DNA from: Pseudolysobacter antarcticus
GTDB taxonomy: Bacteria > Pseudomonadota > Gammaproteobacteria > Xanthomonadales > Rhodanobacteraceae
Length of the DNA: 64,000 nt
Direction of reading: 5' to 3'
Assembly: GCF_004168365.1 (NCBI RefSeq)
Contig: NZ_CP035704.1
Coordinates: 3,596,001 to 3,660,000, forward strand
Part shown: positions 2,341-40,269 of the stretch, piece by piece
Layout: every line of letters begins with the position of its first letter
Position numbering within the stretch: the stretch's first letter is position 1
Position numbers and translations under genes: made by a program
The notes under the pieces: model-generated
Told to the model about the DNA's origin: nothing
The model's input: the letters and a program-made list of their open reading frames with translations, nothing else
Databases searched by the model: none

Positions 2341-3960
2341 ATGTTGCGTTTACCTCGTTTGACTTCCGTCCTCGGCACCGTCGTTTTTGCGCTTGGCGCA
2401 AGCAGCATGGCCAGCAGCGCGATAGCCGCCAGCAGCATCGTCGTTGGTGCAACCGAAGATGCCGACAGCAATGATGCGATCTGCACCTTTCGCGAGGCGA
2501 TCGTCGCGACCAATGCTCAGGCGTCGTATCACGGCTGTGTTTTCAGCGGCAGCGGTGCGCCGACCACGATTAGTTTCAATATCGCCGGCGCCGGGCTGCA
2601 AGAGATCGACATCACGAGCCAATTGCCAGCCTTCACCAAGCCGGTAATCGTCGACGGCCTGAGCCAACCTGGGGCCAGTTGCAGCGTATGGCCGCCGACC
2701 TTGCTCGTGGAAATCCGCAGCCCGAGCAACGGCGCATATAGCGGCCTTGGCCTCAACCCCGGTTCCGGCGGCAGCACGATTCGCGGCCTGGTGATGAACG
2801 GTTTCAACAACAACAGCGGCAACAATTTCAATTTCAATGCCGCGATCAATATTTTCCAGAGCAACGGCAATCGCGTGGAATGCAATCTGATCGGCACCGA
2901 TGCCAGCGGCACCTCGAACATGGCCAATCTGCGCGGCGTCGATATCAATAGTTCGTCGAACAACATTATTGGCTCGGACGGAACGGCAAAAAGCTATTTC
3001 GCGCGCAATCTGATTTCCGGCAACCAGTACGGCCAGGTCAACACGCGTGGCACCGCGTTGAGCGGCAATCGCATCTCCGGCAACTTCATCGGCACCGATG
3101 TCACCGGCACGCTGGCGATGAGCGGCCAGGGCGCGGCGGACGGCGTGAATATCAGCGCCAGTCCCGGGCCGGCCAGCGGAAATTTCATCGGCTGGGATGG
3201 CATTGGCGATCCGCTGCTGATGCGCAATATCATTTCCGGATTTACCTTCAACGGCGCTGGCGCAATCACGATGGTGGTCGGCGCGCAAGGCAATCGTGTC
3301 GCAGGCAATTACATCGGCACGGATGTGACCGGCAGCGTGGCGATCGCGAATTTCTTCGGCGTGAGTCTGGGTTCGAACAGCAGTGTTTTCGGCAATATCA
3401 TCGGCAACGACGGCAGCCAGAATGCGGCGTCGGCGCGCAACGTGATTTCGGGAAACAGCTTCACCGGCGTAGACATCAATGGATCGAACGGCACCCACGA
3501 TAACGCGGTGATCGGCAACTTTATCGGCATGAATGCCACCGGCACTGCGATCCTCGGCAACGGCTCGTACGGTGTTTCGATGGATCTCGGATCGGCGAGC
3601 ACGCTGGTAGCACGCAACTGGATCGCCGGATCGGGCCGATCGATTCGATTCTTCGGTTCGGGCAGCGGCACTACCGCAAGTTTCATCAACAACAGCAGCG
3701 CTGCCAACGCCAACTTGCCTGCCCTCGATTCGCGCGACAACTGCCTGCTCAATTCCGGCGGTGGCGTATATATTCTGGCGCAAGGATCGAGCGTGCCGAA
3801 CCCGAATCTGTTTGCGCATAACTGGTGGGGAGCGGCTGGCGGCCCGAACACCGCCGGCGCTACCACGGCCGATGCAAGTATCGCCGCGAATCCGGCGCTG
3901 ATCGCACCGGCGACAATCTGCAGCGACGTGATTTTTGCGAACGGTTTCGAGGGGCAATAG
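2341..3960 (+). CDS. secreted CSLREAI-like beta-helix repeat protein
   Basis: The product of 539 residues begins with a Sec signal peptide (hydrophobic residues about 8-28, cleavage near ASSAIAA-SS). A CSLREAI-like segment, CTFREAIVATNAQ, follows near residue 50. The body is rich in Asn/Gly repeats such as RNLISGN, GNFIGTDVTG and NVISGNSF at spacings of roughly 25 to 60 residues. That pattern is characteristic of a right-handed parallel beta-helix on an exported protein. The last residues, DVIFANGFEGQ, form a short tail that recurs on three other exported proteins in this window. A good ribosome site (GGGAG) lies eight bases before the ATG. It is probably a surface or secreted adhesin-like or carbohydrate-interacting protein, and no catalytic residues are evident. 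Confidence 0.75.
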   Translation: MLRLPRLTSVLGTVVFALGASSMASSAIAASSIVVGATEDADSNDAICTFREAIVATNAQASYHGCVFSGSGAPTTISFNIAGAGLQEIDITSQLPAFTKPVIVDGLSQPGASCSVWPPTLLVEIRSPSNGAYSGLGLNPGSGGSTIRGLVMNGFNNNSGNNFNFNAAINIFQSNGNRVECNLIGTDASGTSNMANLRGVDINSSSNNIIGSDGTAKSYFARNLISGNQYGQVNTRGTALSGNRISGNFIGTDVTGTLAMSGQGAADGVNISASPGPASGNFIGWDGIGDPLLMRNIISGFTFNGAGAITMVVGAQGNRVAGNYIGTDVTGSVAIANFFGVSLGSNSSVFGNIIGNDGSQNAASARNVISGNSFTGVDINGSNGTHDNAVIGNFIGMNATGTAILGNGSYGVSMDLGSASTLVARNWIAGSGRSIRFFGSGSGTTASFINNSSAANANLPALDSRDNCLLNSGGGVYILAQGSSVPNPNLFAHNWWGAAGGPNTAGATTADASIAANPALIAPATICSDVIFANGFEGQ

Positions 3961-4046: not shown

Positions 4047-7000
4047 TTATTCGATCGGGCACAGCGCCGCTGTGATCGTTTCCAGATTGTTGCGGAAGAT
4101 AACGTCGCCGGCGTTCAGCACGGTCACTGCAAGCGGCCCCGAAACACTGGGCGCATTGTTGTTGTCGCCGCCGTAGTTTGCCATGAGGTTGTAATGATCC
4201 TGAGTATCCGAGCCCGTCACGGCCAGCGTGCTGACAGTGCAACTCGCACTCGCAGAACTCAGGGCTACAGCGCTGCAGAGTACCGTCGCCCCGTTCTTGA
4301 ACGTTGCCGTGCCGGTAGGCGTCGCGCCGCTCACGTGAACCGTCAGCGTGAAGGGCTGGTTTCCCACGAAAGTGGTCATGCAAGTCGTAGACAATATCGT
4401 CGTCGTCGGCGTCGCCCCGTTCACGGTTTGCGACACGCTCGACGATGTAGAACTCATATTGGATGCGTCGCCGCTGTAGACCGCAGTAATGCCATGCGTT
4501 CCGCCACTCAGCGCCGAGGTCGAGCATACTGCGACCGGACTGTTACTGGTGCCGCCAGTGAACGCGACCGCGCTGCATCCGACAATGGCATTGGTGCCGT
4601 CCTTGAACGTCACCGTGCCGGTGGGTGTCGCGCCCGTCACTGTGGCGATAAACGTGACGCTCTGGCCAAATGTGCTCGGGTTCGTGCCCGATACCAGCGC
4701 AGTGTTGCTCGACGGCGGATTGACGGTCACGCTGGCGCTACCGCTGCTGCCGATGAAATTGGCATCTCCGGAATAGCTAGCGGTAATCGTCTTGTTGCCG
4801 GTGCTGGTGGGAGTGAGCAGGCACGTGCCTGCACCGTTGTTCAAACTGGCGACGGTGCAGGTGTCACCCGTGCCATCGCTGACACTGATACTGCCGCCAG
4901 CCACGCCCGCTGCGGGACTAGTCGGGCTAACCGACACATTCACCGTGTATGGAGTACCCACGGTGACGCTGCCCGACGCCGGCATCACTGCCACTGTCGT
5001 ATTGCCCTTGGTCACCGTGTGCGACAACGGTGAGGTAATGCTCGCAGCAAACCCACTGCCGCTGCCTGGTGTGTAGGTGGCGGTAAGGAAATAGTTGCCA
5101 GGCGCAACCCAAGTGATGTTGCAAGAGGCGCTGCCGCCCGAAAGCGTGGCCGGTCCGCAGCTCGTCGTGCCGTCCGACACGCTCACCGTGCCGTCCGGCG
5201 TTCCCGACGACGCGCTTACCGTTACATTGATCGCGTAGCTTTGACCAACAACGGAAGTGGCCGTTGAGGTGATTGTCGTGATCGTAGCCTGCGTCACGAG
5301 CACGCTGTTGCTAGCGGGCGATGCTGGTGCGGCACCCGCGGCATTGTGGGCGACGACGGTAAACGTATACGTGCCCGGGGCGATCGGACTGAACAAGATG
5401 CTCGTGCACGGCGTCGAGCAGGATGCCGTGGCACCCCCCGGCGTAGCGGTCGCGGTATAACTGATGGGTGCGCCGCCATCGGAAATCGGCACACTGAAAT
5501 TCACTGTTGCCTGAAAGACAGCCCCGACAGCGGTCGGTGTGGCGGTGACCCCGCCAGGGGGCGTCGCCAAGCGCGATAAGCGCGCCGCGCTCGGGATGCC
5601 ATTAACCCAAGTGCGCACCATCACCAGGCCGGCCGGAAATCCGGCAAAGGCCGTGGCAGTGCCGGTGAAATTGGTATTGGAGAAATTAACCGTTTCATCG
5701 TTGCTTATGAAGCGCATCTGCTCGTTGTCGAGGCGCTGCACCTGGAACATCGGCATATTCGTGGCCGAACTATTCGTCGCGCCGCCGCTGGCTTCGAAGT
5801 TGGGCAAAAACCCGCTACCGGTCGCAGCCAGCGCGCTGGTCTGCAGCAAAAACGTGTTGGTCGCGCTCAGTATCGGCTGTCGGGTTGGATCAGGGGCCAG
5901 GCCCGGATCGGCCTGCTCAGCACTCGATAGAATAGCGCCGTTGTGGATGCCGCCGGCCACCAGCAGCTGGCCCGAGGGCAGCAGCGTCGCGGTGTGTTCA
6001 CTGCGCCCATTCGCGAGCATGCCGGCCGCGCTCCATACGTTCAGCGCGGGATCGTACAGCTCTGCGCCGAAATCGGTGCCGTTGCGACCGACCGCCAGCA
6101 CCTTGCCGGAGGGCAACAGGGTGGCAGTGTGATAAAAGCGCGCGGTCGTGAGCGAGCCGGCAGCGCTCCATAAGTTCGTAGCCGGATCGTACAGCTCGGC
6201 GCTGGCGAGATAGCTGCTCTCGCCGTCGGCGGTGCCGCCCGCAACTAGCACCTTGCCTGAGGGCAGCAGCGTGGCGGTATGTAAAATGCGCGCGGTCGTG
6301 AGCGTGCCGGCCGCACTCCATAGGTTCGTGGCCGGATCGTACAGTTCGGCGCTTGCGAGCGCGACGAACTGTACGCCGGCGCCGCCGACCACCAGCACCT
6401 TGCCCGAGGGCAGCAGCGTGGCGGTGTGCGAATAGCGCCCGGTCGTGAGCGTGCCGGTCACGCTCCAAGCGTTCGTCGCCGGATCGTACAGCTCGGCGCT
6501 GGCGAGATTGACGAAGCCGTTGGGGCCGATGTAGCCGCCGCCGGCCACCAGCACTTTGCCCGAGGGCAGCAGCGTGGCGGTGTGAGATCCGCGCGCGGTC
6601 GCGAGCGCGCCAGCGGCGTTCCATAGGTTCGTCGCCGGATCGTACAGTTCTGCGGCGGCTTCGGCGCCACTGGCGCCGAAGCCGCCAACCACCAGCAGCT
6701 TGCCCGAGGGCAGCAGCGTGGCGGTGTGCGAATCGCGCCCGGTCGTGAGGTTGCCCGCCACGCTCCACGTATTCAGCGCCGGATCGTACAGGTCGGTGCT
6801 GACCGCAGTAGAATCAGAGCAACAGCCGCCAACCGCCAGCACCTTTCCTGAGGGCAGCAACGTGGCTGTATGTGCATAGCGCGGAGTCGTGAGTGTGGTC
6901 GTGAGTGTGCCGGCCCCGCTCCATGTGATCGACGCCGCATCGTACAACTCGGCGCTGGCGAGAAAACCACTTACGTTGTTGCCGCCGGCCACCAGCACCT

Positions 7001-8018
7001 GGCCCGAGGGCAGCAGCGTGGCGGTGTGAGATTGGCGCGCGGTCGAAAGCGTACCGGCCGCGCTCCATGTATTAAGCGCCGGATCGTACATTTCGGCGCT
7101 GGCGAGATAGCTGAGGTTGACGCCTTGGCCACCGACCACCAGCAGCTTGCCCGAGGGCAGCAATGTGGCGGTGTGGTTATAGCGCGCGTTGGTGAGCGTG
7201 CCAGCCAGGCTCCAGGTATTCAACGCCGGATCGTACAGCTCGGCGCTGACGAGCGGGCCGCTGACGTTGCCACCGCCCGCCACCAAGACCTTGCCCGAGG
7301 GCAGCAGAGTGGCGGTGTGTGCGCCGCGCGCGGTCGAAAGCGCGCCGGCCGCGCTCCATAGGTTCGTCGCCGGATCGTATCGCTCGGCGCTGGTGCCGAT
7401 GCCACCGGCCACCAACACCTTGCCCGAGGGCAGCAACGTGGCGGTGTGTCCATAGCGCGTGGTCGAGAGTGTACCGGCTGCGCTCCATGTGTTCGTCGCC
7501 GGATCGTACCGTTCGGCGCTGGCGAGATCGCTGTCGTTCTCGTCATCGCCGCCGACTACCAGCACCTTGCCGGAGGTCAGCAAAGTGGCGGTGTGTCCAT
7601 AGCGTCCGGTCGTGAGTGTGCCAGCCGCACTCCATAGGTTCAGCGCCGGATCGTACAACTCCGCGCTAGCGAGAGCGTTGCCAATGCCGCTGCCCCCGAC
7701 CACCAGCACCTTGCCCGAGGGCAGCAGCGTTGCGGTATGTACACAACGCGCGTTCGTGAGCGAGCCAGCCGCGCTCCACAGGTTCGTCGCCGGATCGTAC
7801 AACTCGGCGCTGGTTCGAGCGCCATTGCTGCTAAAGCCCCCGACCACCAACAATTTGCCCGAGGGCAGCAGCGTTGCGGTGTGTTCACTGCGCGCGTTCG
7901 CGAGCGAACCGGCTGCGCCCCACGTGTTGGGTCCCGCCGCTTGCGCCACGTCGACGACGGCGAACGTAGCCATCAGCAGCAGCGCGATCCGCGCGAATGT
8001 TTGATATGAGGCCCGCAT
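4047..8018 (-). CDS. secreted kelch-repeat protein with C-terminal Fn3/Ig-like domains
   Basis: This is an exported protein of about 1323 residues. After a signal peptide ending in VAQAAG come 14 kelch-type repeats of about 47 residues. Each carries [16 protein letters not shown] and [15 protein letters not shown], and together they should build one or two beta-propellers (residues about 30-700). A linker, one Fn3-like domain (about 825-910) and four bacterial Ig-like repeats (about 915-1300, with GTVTFKDGT and YSGDANF) follow. The C-terminus holds [10 protein letters not shown], a variant of the tail on other exported proteins here, followed by eleven more residues. The chosen ATG at 8018 has a strong AGGGG site seven bases upstream. 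The frame stays open to 8060, but that extension would bury the signal peptide. The role is probably surface binding and is not proven. Confidence 0.8.
5905..7930 (-). repeat. tandem array of 14 kelch-encoding repeats
   Basis: Within the large gene the DNA repeats about every 140-147 bases. Core stretches such as gcccgagggcagcagcgtgg recur almost unchanged in unit after unit. The high nucleotide identity between units suggests recent duplication and continuing homogenisation. Copy number is likely to vary between strains. Confidence 0.85.
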
Positions 8019-8325
8019 GGTAAATCCCCTCGTCCCTAGATAGGCTAGCCAGTAGCGCATGCCCTGGGCATCCGTAGCGTGAAGGTGCTCGACGTATCAA
8101 CCACGCCTACGAGCGAAATGATCTGGGCGCGTTCACCCTACTCCTGGTACCCGAACTTGAGAAGCTTGGTTAACGCGGGGACGGATACTAGGACAGAACT
8201 CGACGACACGTCGCGTCGCCCACTGCAAAGCTCGCGCCCAATATCAGGCAATGTCTCAGCGCAAATTCAGTAGAGCGTTTCGGTCAGCAACATGGCGTAA
8301 CGAATGGAGCAGCGCTTGCACCGGA
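8019..8325. other. intergenic region upstream of the kelch gene
   Basis: These 307 bases separate two minus-strand genes. Apart from the AGGGG ribosome site of the kelch gene at the left end I see no gene, hairpin terminator or convincing promoter. The promoter of the kelch gene must lie here. Confidence 0.5.
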
Positions 8326-21331: not shown

Positions 21332-24103
21332 CTAATTCGCTGGCGAAAATCCGAATCCGTCGATGTAGATAATATCGTGGGCAATAGTGCCCACCGGTGT
21401 GCTGCCGCCGATCAGGATCTGATACGGCGCGTTCAACAATACCGAGAGCGACTTGTCTTGATAATTCGCTGTCACGATATCGGGTTTGCCATCGCCGTTC
21501 AGATCAGCCACCGCGGTCGAAAAAGTACTTACGCCGGCGGTCACCGCTTGCTGTGTGGCGAAGCTGGCGGTCGTGGCACCCGGTACAGTGGTATTGCGCA
21601 ATATCGATATCGATCCCGGCGTGATGAAGCCTATATTCGCCACGATCAGGTCGGGCTTGCCATCACCATTCAAATCGGTAGGAGTTACTGCGTAAGCAGA
21701 CTGGTTTGCGGCAAATGATTGCTGCGCGGAGAACGTCGCTATGGCCGAGCCGGCTGCGGTGGTATTGAGCAACACCGATACCGACGCCGTACTTGAACCG
21801 GGATTGGCGACGATCACATCGGACTTGCCGTCGCCATTGATATCCGCAGTGGAGATGTTCTGCGGATAGAACCCCGCCGCAAATACCTGTTGCGTGGCAA
21901 AGCTCACAGTCGTCGCACCCGGCGCGGTGGTATTGAGCAAGACCGACATCGTACCGACGCTGGTATTGTTGGCGACGACCAAATCCGGCTTGCCATCCCG
22001 GTTGACGTCCGCCGCAGCAACCCAGATCGGCGATGTGCCCGTGGCGAATGTTTGTTGCGTGGCGAAACTGCCGGTCGTGGCACCAGTGGCGGTGGTATTG
22101 AGCAAGACCGAAATCGTGTTGGAATTGCGATTGGCGGCAATCAGATCGGGCTTGCCATCGCCATTGATGTCGAGGCTGATGATCGAACGCGGATCCGTCC
22201 CGGTCGCAAATGTTTGTGGCGTTGCAAAGCTCACCACCCCGGCTCCGGCGGCCGTGGTGTTCATGAACAACCAGATCTGATTGGCATCGCGCGCACTAAC
22301 CAGCAGGTCAAGCTTGCCATCCCCGTTGACATCGGCAATGGCAATTGTTTCGCTGTTGTTGCCGGTGGTAAAAATCTGCCGTCCACCATACGTGGCGGTT
22401 GCACTGCCGGGGATCGTGGCATTGAGGAAAACGCCGAAGTTATCGCTATCACACACAATCAGGTCAGGCTTGCCGTCGCCGTTCAGATCCGCCGTAGTGA
22501 CATAGACCGGACGACCTTGTGCGACCGGATCAAACGCTGATGCAAAATCCTGCTTGGGCGCAAGACTCGGCAAGACGGCACTCGAAACCATCGTGTTCAT
22601 CACCACCGAAACTGTATCGTCGCCGAGGTTGGCGGAAATCAGATCAAGCTTGCCATCGCCATTCAAGTCGGCGCTGATCACCGCCGCAGGATTGGCGCCA
22701 GCGGCGAAAGCTTGCTCCACTGCAAAATTCGCCGTGGCACTGCCCGGCGTGGTGAGATTGAGTAGCACCGACAGACTATTTGCACCGCTGTTCGCGATGA
22801 CCAGATCGGGCTTGCCATCGCTGTTGGCATCCGCCGTGGTGACTGAAATGGGACCCGCCTCGGTGGCGAAAGTCTTTTGTGCGGCAAAACTCGGCGCGGT
22901 ATCGCCAGCGGCCGTGGTGCTGAACAATACCGAGACCGTATTCGACGAATTGTTGACGACGATCAGATCGGGCTTGCCATCGCCGTTGATATCCGCCGTG
23001 CTGACCGCGACCGGATTGCTGCCCGTGGCGAAGCTGGTCTGCGCAGTAAATGCTAGCGTAGTCGAGCCGGATACGGTGGTATTGAGCAACGCCGAAACAC
23101 TGCTGGCGCCGTTGTTGGCGACGATGATATCGGGCTTGCCATCGCCATTGAGATCGCTGGCGATCACATTGATCGGATTAGCCGCGCTGGCGAAGGTTTG
23201 CTGCGTGGCAAAGCTCGGCGCGGCCGCGCCGGGCGCGGTGGTGTTGAGCAGCACCGAGACAGTATTCGAACCGTTATTCGCGACGATCAGATCCGGCCTG
23301 CCGTCGCCGTTGAGGTCCACACTCGCGACCGATGTCGGATTGCTGCCGGTAGCAAAAGTTTGCTGTGTGGCAAAGCTCGCGATCAAGGTGCCAGGCACGG
23401 TGGTATTGAGCAGCACCGAGACGGTATTGCCGCCGTAGTTGGCGATAACGATGTCGGGCAAACCGTCGCCGTTGAAATCGGCGATGCTGATCGCGCGCGG
23501 ATTCGAGCCGACGGCAAACGTCTGCGCCACCGCAAAACTTGGCGTACTCGCGCCCGCCGCGGAGGTATTGAGCAGCACCGAAATATTTCCCGATGTACTG
23601 TTCGCTACGATCAGATCGAGTTGACTGTCGCCGTTGAGATCGACCGCGCGAATCGCGTATGGTGCGGCGCCTGCGGCGAAAATTTGCTGGGTCGCGAACG
23701 TCGGTGGCGAACCGATCGTCGCGCCATCCAAAAACAGGTTGAACGTATTGAACGGCGGATTGCCGGAGTCCGGCAATATCGTGACTGGAATATTGGCGCT
23801 GCTCGCGCCGGCGGCAAACAGGATGTTGCCGGCGTTGGCGCTGTAATCCTTGCCAGCCTTGGCGGTGATATTCGCGGTGTGATAATTCAACAGCACGGCG
23901 TAGGTTTTATCGCCAGTACGCGTGACCGGAAAATTCATTGTCTGCGCCGAACTGCCGGCACTGATGCTGGCAGGCGATGAGCCGGTCAATGTGGTGTCGG
24001 CGGCGAGCGCGGATACGCTGAATAAAACGCTGAGTAAAAATGCCGGCATACGATGCCGGATCGGATCGCGCAACTGCGTGCGCGCCGTAGCCTTGTCTTG
24101 CAT
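21332..24103 (-). CDS. secreted FG-GAP/VCBS repeat protein with Calx-beta-like domain
   Basis: This is an exported protein of 923 residues. After a signal sequence (hydrophobic stretch about 20-34, ending ALAA) comes a Calx-beta-like domain (about 36-125). Fourteen FG-GAP/VCBS units follow, each with a calcium-loop motif such as ADLNGDGKPDLIVAN and a NTVSVLLNTT strand. They should form beta-propeller blades. The C-terminus HDIIYIDGFGFSPAN is a divergent version of the tail on other exported proteins of this window. The ATG at 24103 has AGGGGG about seven bases upstream. Probable role: calcium-dependent surface or matrix protein. No enzymatic motif was found. Confidence 0.8.
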   Translation of the reverse strand: MQDKATARTQLRDPIRHRMPAFLLSVLFSVSALAADTTLTGSSPASISAGSSAQTMNFPVTRTGDKTYAVLLNYHTANITAKAGKDYSANAGNILFAAGASSANIPVTILPDSGNPPFNTFNLFLDGATIGSPPTFATQQIFAAGAAPYAIRAVDLNGDSQLDLIVANSTSGNISVLLNTSAAGASTPSFAVAQTFAVGSNPRAISIADFNGDGLPDIVIANYGGNTVSVLLNTTVPGTLIASFATQQTFATGSNPTSVASVDLNGDGRPDLIVANNGSNTVSVLLNTTAPGAAAPSFATQQTFASAANPINVIASDLNGDGKPDIIVANNGASSVSALLNTTVSGSTTLAFTAQTSFATGSNPVAVSTADINGDGKPDLIVVNNSSNTVSVLFSTTAAGDTAPSFAAQKTFATEAGPISVTTADANSDGKPDLVIANSGANSLSVLLNLTTPGSATANFAVEQAFAAGANPAAVISADLNGDGKLDLISANLGDDTVSVVMNTMVSSAVLPSLAPKQDFASAFDPVAQGRPVYVTTADLNGDGKPDLIVCDSDNFGVFLNATIPGSATATYGGRQIFTTGNNSETIAIADVNGDGKLDLLVSARDANQIWLFMNTTAAGAGVVSFATPQTFATGTDPRSIISLDINGDGKPDLIAANRNSNTISVLLNTTATGATTGSFATQQTFATGTSPIWVAAADVNRDGKPDLVVANNTSVGTMSVLLNTTAPGATTVSFATQQVFAAGFYPQNISTADINGDGKSDVIVANPGSSTASVSVLLNTTAAGSAIATFSAQQSFAANQSAYAVTPTDLNGDGKPDLIVANIGFITPGSISILRNTTVPGATTASFATQQAVTAGVSTFSTAVADLNGDGKPDIVTANYQDKSLSVLLNAPYQILIGGSTPVGTIAHDIIYIDGFGFSPAN
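21430..23700 (-). repeat. array of 14 FG-GAP-encoding repeats
   Basis: DNA units of about 150-180 bases encode D-x-N-G-D-G-x-x-D calcium loops in near-regular spacing. Segments such as gatcgggcttgccatcgcc recur with little change, suggesting duplication of units within the gene. Confidence 0.8.
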
Positions 24104-37103: not shown

Positions 37104-37380
37104 AAATCGCCGCGAATACGTGGCATCGGCCCACAATTCGTGTAGAGTCTGGCGTGCAACCGGTTCCAGGAATGCGGGCACGGCGCCCGCGCGATGCAGT
37201 CGATCCATCTGACCGCAGGAGGACATCCGGCTGCTCCTACAATTGGGCGCAATCCGCATGCTCTTGTACCCCGAAGGGGTATGCAGCTGTGTACGTCATC
37301 GTGTGCGACATAAAACCGTCAAACATTGCCGCTATATTGCGTCTTCTTTTGCCCGAAACTTATTCAGAGTGGGGTTTGCG

Positions 37381-40269
37381 ATGTTTGGAAAATATATTCG
37401 TTCACTGGCGGTCTTCGCCCTGCTGGCAACAGCGATGGCAGGTCACGCCCAAGTAGTAATCAGTCAGGTGTATGGCGGCGGCGGCAATACTGGCGCGACC
37501 TTCACCAACGACTTTATCGAAGTGTTCAATCGCGGCAGTGCGGCGGTCGATATCAATGGCTGGTCGGTGCAGTACGCCTCCTCAGCCGGTACCACTTGGG
37601 CTGCGACCACCCTTGCAAGCACGAGTACGATGCTGCAACCGGGCCAATATTATCTGGTGCAGGAAGCCTCCGGCGGCGCCGTTGGCGCGGCTCTGCCTGC
37701 TGCGGACGCGACCGGCGGCCTCAACCTTTCGGCAACAAATGGCAAGGTGGCACTGGTCAATACGAGTACGGCACTGACTGGCGCGTCCCCGACTGGCAGC
37801 GCTATCCAGGATTTGGTCGGATTCGGCACAGCCACCTTTTTCGAAGGTAGCGGTGCCGCCGCTGCGGGCTCGAACACCACGGCACTAATCCGCGCTGCAG
37901 CTGGTTGCACCGACACCAACTCCAATAGCGCGGATTTCGCTGTCGCGACCCCCACACCGCGCAATCGCTTGAGCACTCTGCACGTCTGCGGCGGCGGTGG
38001 CGGCCCCACCAACCCCAGCGCCACTGGTGCGGCAAGCCCCACATCGGTTTTGGCAGGCAACAGCACGTTGCTTACTGTCAGCGTCACTCCGGGCGGCACG
38101 CCAACCAGTACCGGCCTTGCCGTTACGGTAAATCTCACGGCTATCGGCGGCTCAGCCAACCAGACTTTCTACGATGACGGCTCGAACGGCGATACAACGC
38201 CCGGCGACAATGTGTTCAGCTATAACGCGACCGTCGCCGGCGCCACGTCTGGCGGCAGCAAATCCCTGACCGCCACGATCACCGATGCACAATCACGCTC
38301 CGCGACCGCGCCGATCACGCTCACCGTGACCACCCCGCCGGTCACGATCATGCAGATACAAGGCCATGGTGGCTTATCGCCTCTGGCAGGTAGCACGGCG
38401 ACCACAACGGGAACCGTGACAGCTGTTGGCACCAAGGGTTTCTTCATCCAAGATCCGACCGGCGACAATGATGTCACCACATCGGATGCGGTTTACGTCT
38501 TCATTAACGCAGCACCCACCGTCGTGGTCGGCAATTCAGTCACAGTCACCGCCACCGTGAGCGACTACCAGGGCTCGACCGAGTTGAGTGCTACTCTGCC
38601 GAGCATCGTCAACATCGTCAATAATGGTGCCGGCGTGGTGCCGAGCGCGGTGGTCCTCGACAACAATCCGCCATCGACCGATCCGACGACCGGCATCTGC
38701 GCAAATCCGGCCATCACGGTCGCTGACGGCTTGCAGGCAAATAATTTTGCGTGCCTGGATGGCATGCTGGTAACGATGAACGATGCGATCGTGACGGGCG
38801 CTACCTTCGGCACTGGTTCCGATGGCGTGCATCAAGGTTTGCCATCCGGTTTTTACGCAACACTGGCTAGCCAACCGCGGCCGTACCGTGCGGTCGGTGC
38901 GGCGTGGCCGGGACTTGGCGGCAGCATCCCGGTGTGGAATGGCGAGCCGGAAATTCTCGAAATCTACTACAACGGCCTTGCCTTTCCATCGGCCGGTTAC
39001 ATCTACAACGCCGGTACGCGCTTCAGTGTCACCGGCGTGATTCAGGGTTATCAGGGTGCTTACGAAATGTACCCGATCACGATGACCACCAACACGGCCA
39101 TTCCGGCGCCAACCTATCCGCAGCCAGTCAAGGATTCTGCCGACGGCACGCTGACGATCGGCACGCAGAACATGCTGCACTTTTTCAATGCCACGGCGGA
39201 TGGCGCCGATACCAGCACCTACACCGACTCGTGCGCCGGCACTGGCGCCAGTGATACCTGCCCGACTCCGGCGCAGTATGCGATTCGCCTGCAAAAAATG
39301 TCGAAGCAAATTCGTGAAGTACTGAAATCGCCGATCGCCCTCGGTGTGGAAGAGATCGAAAATTATTCGACCTTGACCGACCTCAAGAATCGGATCTACA
39401 CCGACAGCGGCAACACGCTCATGTATCAACAATTCACGATGCCCGGCAACGATCTCGGCGGTATCAATCTCGGCATTCTGGTGCGCAACGATGTCGTCGT
39501 GCATTCCGTCACGCAGATGTACAAGGGCACAACCACGTCGAGCTGCAGCAGTGGTGCATCATGCTTGCTCAACGACCGCCCGCCGGTGCTGCTCGATGCG
39601 ACCTTCAACGGTTATCACTTCAACTTGCTCGTTATCTACGACCGCTCGCTGATCAACCTCGGCGTGAACGACTACGTCGGCAAAAAACGTACCGAGCAAG
39701 CCGTTCAGATCGCCAGCATCGTGCAAGCGCTGCAAAGCGGTGGCACCTTGGTCGGCGCGGGCAACGCACAGCAGGACAGCGCTGGTGTGATTACCTCGCC
39801 CGGACCGTTCAACATCACCGGTGATGTCAACGTGCCGCTAATCGTAGTCGGCGATTTCAACGCCTACGAATTCACCGATGGTTACGTCGATGTCACGGGC
39901 ATGATCACCGGCGCAGCAGTGCAAGCGCAGAACAAGTACTGGGATCTGAGCGGCACTTATGTCGCACCAAGCCCGACTTTGATCGATACCGGCATCAAGG
40001 CTGATCCGACCCAGCGCTACTCGTACAACTTCAGCGGTTATGCGCAGGAGATCGATCACGTGTTGCTGTCGCGCCGCGGCTGGAAGGATTTTGTGAGCGT
40101 ATCGAACGCGCACGGCAATTCGGATGTCTCCGAAGCCGGTATCACTGGCACCACGCCGATCGTGCTCGATGCCAGCACCGCAGCGCACAGCTCGGATCAT
40201 GATGGCCAGGTGCTGACGATCGCGATCGATCGCATCTTCGCCGACGGTCTCGAAGCGCCGCCGCAATAA
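37381..40269 (+). CDS. secreted LTD-domain / endonuclease-exonuclease-phosphatase protein
   Basis: This is an exported protein of 962 residues. A signal peptide (MFGKYIRSLAVFALLATAMA, ending GHAQ) precedes a lamin-tail domain (about 20-150, VVISQVYGGGGNTGATFTND and FIEVFNRG). Beta-rich linker domains follow. The C-terminal third resembles the extracellular EEP nuclease family: TIGTQNMLHFF, GVEEIENYSTL, IVVGDFNAYEF near residue 823 and SSDHDGQV near 936, holding the metal and catalytic Asp/His. It ends in RIFADGLEAPPQ, the short tail found on other exported proteins here. The ATG at 37381 lies after a GTGGGG stretch, and the open frame extends upstream to 37243 without a signal peptide. Probable role: extracellular DNA degradation for nutrient use or matrix turnover. 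Confidence 0.85.
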   Translation: MFGKYIRSLAVFALLATAMAGHAQVVISQVYGGGGNTGATFTNDFIEVFNRGSAAVDINGWSVQYASSAGTTWAATTLASTSTMLQPGQYYLVQEASGGAVGAALPAADATGGLNLSATNGKVALVNTSTALTGASPTGSAIQDLVGFGTATFFEGSGAAAAGSNTTALIRAAAGCTDTNSNSADFAVATPTPRNRLSTLHVCGGGGGPTNPSATGAASPTSVLAGNSTLLTVSVTPGGTPTSTGLAVTVNLTAIGGSANQTFYDDGSNGDTTPGDNVFSYNATVAGATSGGSKSLTATITDAQSRSATAPITLTVTTPPVTIMQIQGHGGLSPLAGSTATTTGTVTAVGTKGFFIQDPTGDNDVTTSDAVYVFINAAPTVVVGNSVTVTATVSDYQGSTELSATLPSIVNIVNNGAGVVPSAVVLDNNPPSTDPTTGICANPAITVADGLQANNFACLDGMLVTMNDAIVTGATFGTGSDGVHQGLPSGFYATLASQPRPYRAVGAAWPGLGGSIPVWNGEPEILEIYYNGLAFPSAGYIYNAGTRFSVTGVIQGYQGAYEMYPITMTTNTAIPAPTYPQPVKDSADGTLTIGTQNMLHFFNATADGADTSTYTDSCAGTGASDTCPTPAQYAIRLQKMSKQIREVLKSPIALGVEEIENYSTLTDLKNRIYTDSGNTLMYQQFTMPGNDLGGINLGILVRNDVVVHSVTQMYKGTTTSSCSSGASCLLNDRPPVLLDATFNGYHFNLLVIYDRSLINLGVNDYVGKKRTEQAVQIASIVQALQSGGTLVGAGNAQQDSAGVITSPGPFNITGDVNVPLIVVGDFNAYEFTDGYVDVTGMITGAAVQAQNKYWDLSGTYVAPSPTLIDTGIKADPTQRYSYNFSGYAQEIDHVLLSRRGWKDFVSVSNAHGNSDVSEAGITGTTPIVLDASTAAHSSDHDGQVLTIAIDRIFADGLEAPPQ

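Follow-up and report, generated by a model that had tools for sequence, protein, structure and literature searches.

In the MYXO-CTERM, an invariant Cys is followed by a helix and basic residues, and the C-terminal domain of the type IX secretion system (T9SS), of about 80 residues and known from Bacteroidota, is a transferable outer-membrane secretion signal borne by unrelated bodies. The PEP-CTERM, which is linked to exosortases, combines a C-terminal transmembrane helix with a basic end, and the GlyGly-CTERM, a transferable sorting module on many exported bodies, also has a membrane helix and a basic end. The latter tracks the genes of the type II secretion system (T2SS) (PMC3237569, PMC13393428): T2SS components score high with GlyGly-CTERM genomes, no T2SS subclass being marked (Haft and Varghese, PMC3237569), and the GlyGly-CTERM proteins of V. 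cholerae, which reach the surface via the T2SS, require a second signal for secretion (PMC13393428). The MYXO-CTERM, with dozens of targets per genome and its invariant Cys (PMC11980579), is believed to be T2SS-dependent as well (PMC13393428). As for the T2SS itself, the recruitment of its cargo has been called elusive, given an apparent absence of common linear sequences (the Pel3 paper, PMC7949064), and a known secretion signal is the nine-residue loop 3 of PelI, which contacts both GspC and GspD (PMC7949064). The choice of cargo by the T2SS is an open question, which a shared nine-residue motif that largely tracks one type of T2SS would make accessible to a direct test.

Such a motif is found in the window (the whole stretch of 64,000 nucleotides of Pseudolysobacter antarcticus DNA that was analysed), in which four ORFs end in variants of one short tail (Table 1). 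All four tails had been pointed out by a sequence-only reading of the window, with a start coordinate that is exact for one of them and one codon off for the other three. The consensus then proposed, here written as D-x-I-[FY]-x-x-G-[FL]-E, is exact in the first and the last tail of Table 1 and degenerate in the kelch tail (position 7 from G to N, position 8 from F to L) and in the FG-GAP tail (position 9 from E to G). A paralogue of the FG-GAP protein encoded elsewhere in the genome (L179, 50% identical in the alignment) has an intact ending, ...TIVHDYIFANGFE, in place of the ...TIAHDIIYIDGFGFSPAN of the window. A six-frame scan of the window with a regular expression returned these four motifs and no others, and the strict pattern appeared in none of 100 dinucleotide shuffles of the window. 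A profile of such tails matches both the kelch tail (G000:C2:3600077-3600112) and the FG-GAP tail (G000:C2:3617350-3617382), each being itself one row of that profile. The bodies in front of the tails are unrelated, as had been read: a kelch protein with Ig-like domains, an FG-GAP protein, an ExeM/NucH-like nuclease with a lamin tail domain (LTD over its cut-off; NF033681, NF033680 and Exo_endo_phos below theirs) and a protein of 539 residues with a signal-peptide-like start and no Pfam match, taken for a beta-helix in the earlier reading.

Table 1. Tails found in the window (window coordinates) and the gspC and gspD genes of the second type II secretion system, T2SS-A (coordinates of contig C2)
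Feature	Position	Strand	Context
Tag DVIFANGFE + GQ	3925..3957 (motif 3925-3951)	+	C-terminus of ORF 2341-3960; strict
Degenerate tag DVIFRNNLE + 10 residues	4050..4106	-	C-terminus of kelch/Ig ORF 4047-8060 (Kelch_4, Big_3_5)
Degenerate tag DIIYIDGFG + FSPAN	21335..21376	-	C-terminus of FG-GAP ORF 21332-24103 (FG-GAP_3)
Tag DRIFADGLE + APPQ	40228..40266 (motif 40228-40254)	+	C-terminus of ExeM/NucH-like nuclease (longest ORF 37243-40269; signal peptide fits start at 37369); strict
T2SS-A gspC + gspD	C2, about 349.9-353.1 kb		P. antarcticus genome; gspC by PF11356

This tag resembles each of the above systems in some respect. It has in common with the GlyGly-CTERM the character of a transferable sorting module on many exported bodies, including some of the same types (an ExeM-type nuclease, rhombotarget A and, by a weak match of one tail, M36); with the PEP-CTERM, many targets per genome, unrelated bodies and choice-of-anchor Q domains; with the MYXO-CTERM, dozens of targets per genome; and with the T9SS domain, transferability among unrelated bodies. 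However, it lacks the helix and basic end of the three CTERM families, is not confined to the C-terminus as the GlyGly-CTERM is, has Cys only rarely around the motif, unlike the MYXO-CTERM, and differs from the 80-residue, C-terminal T9SS domain of Bacteroidota. The absence of a membrane helix and a basic end, already remarked on for the window, extends to the 153 C-terminal tags, of which four have a transmembrane-like stretch, four a basic end and none both. Likewise, no GlyGly model matched 10 typed tails, and Por_Secre_tail was found neither on these nor among the 25 families listed, out of 59, for 37 tagged proteins. The defining features tested for the CTERM anchor families are absent from the tag. 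The likeness to loop 3 of PelI is that of a nine-residue element, exposure and contacts with GspC and GspD being features of PelI, whereas T2SS determinants of that kind are structural and substrate-specific.

Constraint, position and spread of the tag

With the motif written as a DNA pattern, the P. antarcticus genome (4.73 Mb) holds 36 exact matches to D-x-I-[FY]-x-x-G-[FL]-E, and the control (the same pattern reversed) gives 0. If two mismatches are allowed, the figures rise to 188 versus 5, and to 117 versus 1 in the genome G031, although this search overstates the number of tags, 16 untagged genomes yielding between 6 and 73 matches against controls of 0 to 10. The profile, built from 64 tails and run with E up to 10, gives 81 matches in the P. 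antarcticus genome, 63 in G078, 42 in G031, 13 in G005 and 8 in G063, and between 0 and 3 in each of 14 further genomes. Among 30 instances from the P. antarcticus genome, every synonymous codon occurs for the fixed residues (which are partly set by the search pattern, with reversed controls near zero), and there is little signal in the flanks. Since third codon bases vary and flanks are not conserved, selection acts on the peptide, and it is as a peptide that the tag is conserved. Over 167 distinct instances, L, V, R and I predominate at position 2, and the residue at position 6 is N in 43%, D in 29%, S in 14% and H in 8%, so that the common N-G or D-G step could make a tight turn. A disulphide-bonded mini-domain was considered and rejected: Cys looked frequent in a few tails of the P. 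antarcticus genome, but it shows no enrichment ahead of the motif in the 167 instances, not exceeding 3% at any of the 10 preceding positions (background 1.2%), the sample behind the tag being thin.

The position of the tag is less uniform than the description of it as a C-terminal tail had implied. In the P. antarcticus genome, 28 of the 35 carriers that have a start codon bear it at most six residues from the stop, so the motif is not equally frequent inside proteins, a finding that would have told against a shared tail. Nevertheless, it lies directly behind the signal peptide, that is, at the mature N-terminus, in four carriers (L182, L203, L204, L210) and between domains in three (L198, L207, which is an RHS protein, and L209), and a description restricted to the C-terminus does not hold. 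In other genomes, too, proteins that we take to be DUF1800-like (L036 and L223) have it right after the signal peptide. There are also tandem copies, some with one variant copy (L045, L047, L083, L132, L140). The 36th match (L214) lies two residues before a stop in a frame with no in-frame start codon; this frame and two other tagged ones with no convincing start or signal peptide (L198 near 14097 and L196 near 795, both on the reverse strand) are probably truncated, frameshifted or cut by the end of the stretch.

Regarding its spread, the form D-x-I-F-x-x-G-F-E has at least one match in 98 of the 299 genomes of the order (1,336 matches in all, up to 70 per genome), with only 2 in total for the reversed control. 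Of the 388 phylum genomes that lie outside the order, 13 contain a single match and none contains more, the reversed control giving 5 across all 398 phylum genomes. With controls of 0 in the P. antarcticus genome and of 2 and 5 in these larger sets, a chance origin is rejected; the tag is real, specific to the order and under constraint as a peptide. Judging by the names of the carriers, we take the order to be Lysobacterales: among the matches listed (at least 118 stretches) are Marinicella, Dokdonella, Rudaea, Tahibacter and Pseudofulvimonas as well as numerous drafts of Lysobacterales. Within the order the distribution is patchy, the tag being plentiful in families f9 and f3 and in four genera of f1, and almost absent from f2. 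A spread beyond Gammaproteobacteria was rejected: the 15 matches in other groups, among those listed, fall in frames of 10-68 aa and appear to be due to chance. Some matches in carrier lineages likewise fall in short frames, a number of which are interrupted by the end of a contig. The single matches in four genomes lacking GspD-A (the secretin treated below) were also put down to chance, the motif being located 62 residues from the end of two similar ORFs in G096 and G203 and internal to an ORF in G125 and G291. The literature searched, which did not extend to Haft 2024, gave no description of the motif, and the letter-string matches inspected were unrelated by title.

Export of the carriers and independence from their bodies

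From the window, a common handling step had been suggested for unrelated exported proteins, and the wider set of carriers agrees with it. Signal-peptide-like N-termini are present in 31 of 33 tagged ORFs of at least 200 aa versus 125 of 254 untagged ORFs (a set that includes membrane proteins and spurious frames), according to a home-made and lenient score for which up to 13 starts were tried per ORF; when only the first start is taken, the counts are 17 of 33 versus 56 of 254. The carrier in L184, presumably a DUF1501-like protein, has a Tat-type start (RRGFLKG) and a signal score just under the threshold. From the signal-peptide-like starts together with the Tat-type one, it follows that the common step would lie beyond the inner membrane and that, if these starts are read rightly, the tag would serve both Sec and Tat cargo. 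Among the 37 tagged proteins of this genome, choice-of-anchor Q matches 10 and rhombotarget A matches two, further matches being to models of the ExeM/NucH, PHB depolymerase and NHL types (some of them below the cut-off), and one 44-residue tail gives a weak match (E 0.005) to M36 models of the rhombosortase- and myxosortase-dependent kinds. Elsewhere, bodies of these kinds bear GlyGly-, MYXO- or PEP-CTERM anchors, so the tag occupies the place of a sorting signal. No NCBIfam model for the tag itself came up among the tails tried, and an AlphaFold model of a small tagged protein was uninformative (mean pLDDT 49, from a 3-row alignment).

The DUF1501-like protein allows the same body to be compared with and without the tag. 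A search of 56 selected genomes gave homologues in 21 of them, whose C-termini were read in 30 loci (30 of the 34 matched stretches). In four tag-rich genomes (G259, G110, G031 and G151), six of seven homologues end in the tag or a close variant of it, compared with none of nine in untagged genomes that have no close GspD-A. Tagged ends are likewise missing from all four homologues of genus g31, from the one of G082 and from both of G091, which has 5 tags elsewhere, while both homologues of G063, which lacks GspD-A, are tagged, as is one in G097, where the second ends in a loose variant. The tag therefore comes and goes independently of the body. In family f7, in which GspC and GspD-A are present and strict tags absent, two of three homologues end in the variant TERIF[VS]DEFESL (L371 in G006 and L375 in G017), perhaps a family-specific form of the tag.

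Co-occurrence with a second type II secretion system

A scan of 75 genomes for GspD revealed two types of secretin in tagged genomes, and in P. antarcticus GspD scores over the cut-off at two places. One of them, of type A, belongs to a system here called T2SS-A (Table 1), which in the stretch L249 (C2 340000-359900) comprises gspC and gspD, followed by what look like genes for GspE, an amino-acid permease and GspF; the type B secretin is part of a longer and seemingly Xps-like cluster (L250). The permease-like gene (472 aa, named from its sequence) splits the gspE- and gspF-like genes (13098-17320 of L249), and no tagged gene lies beside the T2SS-A genes in this stretch.

Across the 299 genomes of the order, three or more tags are found in 65 of the 117 with type-A GspD versus seven of the 182 without it, the line between both classes having been set by hand with 20 distant or partial homologues (all in genomes with no strict tag) placed under “without”; if 10 partial homologues are moved to the other side, the counts become 65 of 127 versus 7 of 172. 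By genus, the figures are 24 of 39 with GspD-A versus 0 of 46 without, or 23 of 38 versus 1 of 47 if genus g49, counted as “with” through G156 though its tagged member G063 has no GspD-A, is moved. The same holds within families: in f1 the proportions are 10 of 12 versus 0 of 64, and in f2 the two genomes with a close GspD-A hold 5 and 1 tags, none of the 76 others having more than one. In a set of 80 genomes (from which G118, G123, G128 and G152 were left out, here and in the rhombosortase and exosortase comparisons), GspC (PF11356) is present in 37 of 38 tagged genomes, in all nine untagged genomes with GspD-A and in one of 31 untagged genomes with no close GspD-A; of the genomes with one or two tags in this set, G237 has GspC and G097 has none. 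The association of the tag with GspC/GspD-A is strong, and what is new here is this co-occurrence with a GspC/GspD-type T2SS, with exceptions both ways.

Two of these exceptions look like true ones: G063 (97% complete, 130 contigs), with 5 strict tags and 8 by profile, has no GspD-A and no GspC, and G097 (98% complete, 80 contigs), with 2 tags, has neither. The other six genomes with at least three tags and no GspD-A (G048, G059, G118, G123, G178 and G182) are draft assemblies in 150-530 contigs (completeness 77-96%) and have relatives in their genera that do possess GspD-A; they were kept in the counts as misses. In the opposite direction, strict tags are missing from 37 of the 117 genomes that have GspD-A (among them most of genus g31, G227, G255 and G082), which means that T2SS-A is not sufficient. 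On present data, T2SS-A is neither strictly required nor sufficient for the tag. Whether genomes of this second kind carry variant tails is neither shown nor excluded by the two-mismatch search, which gives 73 matches (control 3) in the untagged G037 of genus g31 and 43 (control 6) in G019, which has no GspD match; the profile gives 0-3 in GspD-A genomes with no strict tags. Furthermore, the counts are tallies by genome, genus and family rather than tree-based comparisons and cover four gene families (GspD, GspC, rhombosortase and exosortase), so the tag and the system could simply have been inherited together from an ancestor and lost together in the same lineages, and another gene may track the tag better than GspC/GspD-A does. 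A side observation concerns G255 (genus g12), which has a clear exosortase (G255:C3:153525-154280, 231 bits) alongside GspD-A and no tags; the 12 other g12 genomes searched have no close full-length GspD-A.

What may read the tag

What, then, could such a peptide be for? In our reading, D-x-I-F-x-[ND]-G-F-E would be a short linear tag on exported Lysobacterales proteins, located at one or the other terminus of the mature protein or in between domains, and a sorting or secretion function after translocation is probable. The tagged protein would first cross the inner membrane by Sec or Tat, and the tag would act afterwards, most likely as a docking peptide for the GspC/GspD-type T2SS-A, which would move tagged proteins across the outer membrane or present them at the surface. 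The T2SS accepts folded cargo of both Sec and Tat, and two features of T2SS substrates are found here, namely the Sec- and Tat-like starts and the presence of a T2SS in the genome. That T2SS-A reads the tag, that the cargo is folded by then and where it ends up are points that we infer, the first of them only tentatively. A broader version, in which the tag would be a universal linear, portable and position-independent T2SS label by which dozens of folded, unrelated cargoes are recognised through GspC/GspD, is rather unlikely; if true, it would contrast with the prevailing view that T2SS signals are structural and have no common sequence. In any case, the motif would point to a shared fate for many exported proteins of Lysobacterales (Dokdonella, Tahibacter, Rudaea, Marinicella), and, should the tag be read by something other than the T2SS, a sorting signal able to act from either terminus would still differ from the C-terminal anchors known so far.

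It is also possible that the tagged proteins are secreted by any route and that the tag then binds a fixed receptor on the outer surface (a protein or a polysaccharide), retaining them there. The bodies are of the anchor-bearing kind, as the choice-of-anchor Q and rhombotarget A matches indicate, the tolerance of position and the tandem copies suit a binding motif, and the tags of G063 and G097 fit retention better than docking to a T2SS-A that these genomes do not have. However, no receptor candidate came up among the neighbours of tagged genes in the loci examined, and the co-occurrence with GspC/GspD-A would need another cause. A peptide recognised in the periplasm by a quality-control factor, a chaperone or a protease, affecting folding or stability and not location, seems improbable: it would account for a shared step in or beyond the periplasm, and the hydrophobic I, F and F positions could fit the groove of a chaperone, but neither the patchiness between related lineages nor the GspC/GspD-A link is expected of a general chaperone.

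Still further from the evidence is a processed C-terminal signal of the PEP-, GlyGly- or MYXO-CTERM kind, cleaved or transferred by an exosortase or a rhombosortase-like enzyme. The mostly C-terminal placement and the overlap in kinds of body speak for it, but the N-terminal and internal copies do not behave as a cleaved C-terminal signal would, and the helix and basic end are missing. As partner genes, both enzymes were rejected, since neither tracks the tag across genomes: exosortase (PF09721) is matched in 19 of the 38 tagged genomes, P. antarcticus not being among them, and rhombosortase (TIGR03902) is over its cut-off in four of 80 genomes, none of which belongs to the 38 that have three or more tags. 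In four of these 38, P. antarcticus included, rhombosortase scores of 74-83 bits come close to the cut-off of 84; the rhombosortase-like gene of P. antarcticus (G000:C2:3759924-3760370, 80.1 bits) occurs in a genome whose tag has no GlyGly-CTERM features. Lastly, a functionless leftover of gene duplication or domain shuffling, or a repeat at the DNA level, is hardly credible, for although some carriers are paralogues, as the FG-GAP protein of the window and L179 are, the residues are fixed amid varying third codon positions and unconserved flanks, and the tag sits at N-terminal, internal and C-terminal places of unrelated bodies.

The sequence-only reading had asked whether the tag co-occurs with one candidate sorting gene. 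No such gene next to its targets was found when the ORFs neighbouring tagged genes were clustered in the loci examined, namely stretches of 13-19 kb from the P. antarcticus genome, four stretches of 18 kb (from G003 and G005), pieces of contigs no longer than 8 kb and the window. The clusters, read only if present in at least four loci, comprised genes for ECF sigma factors and kinases, regulators, transporters, enzymes and the tagged families themselves. ECF sigma factor-like genes recur near tagged genes in L181, L196 and L210 of the P. antarcticus genome and in L082 and L107, and at several loci such a gene adjoins one for a Ser/Thr kinase-TPR-like protein, an arrangement whose domains were confirmed in L210 only.
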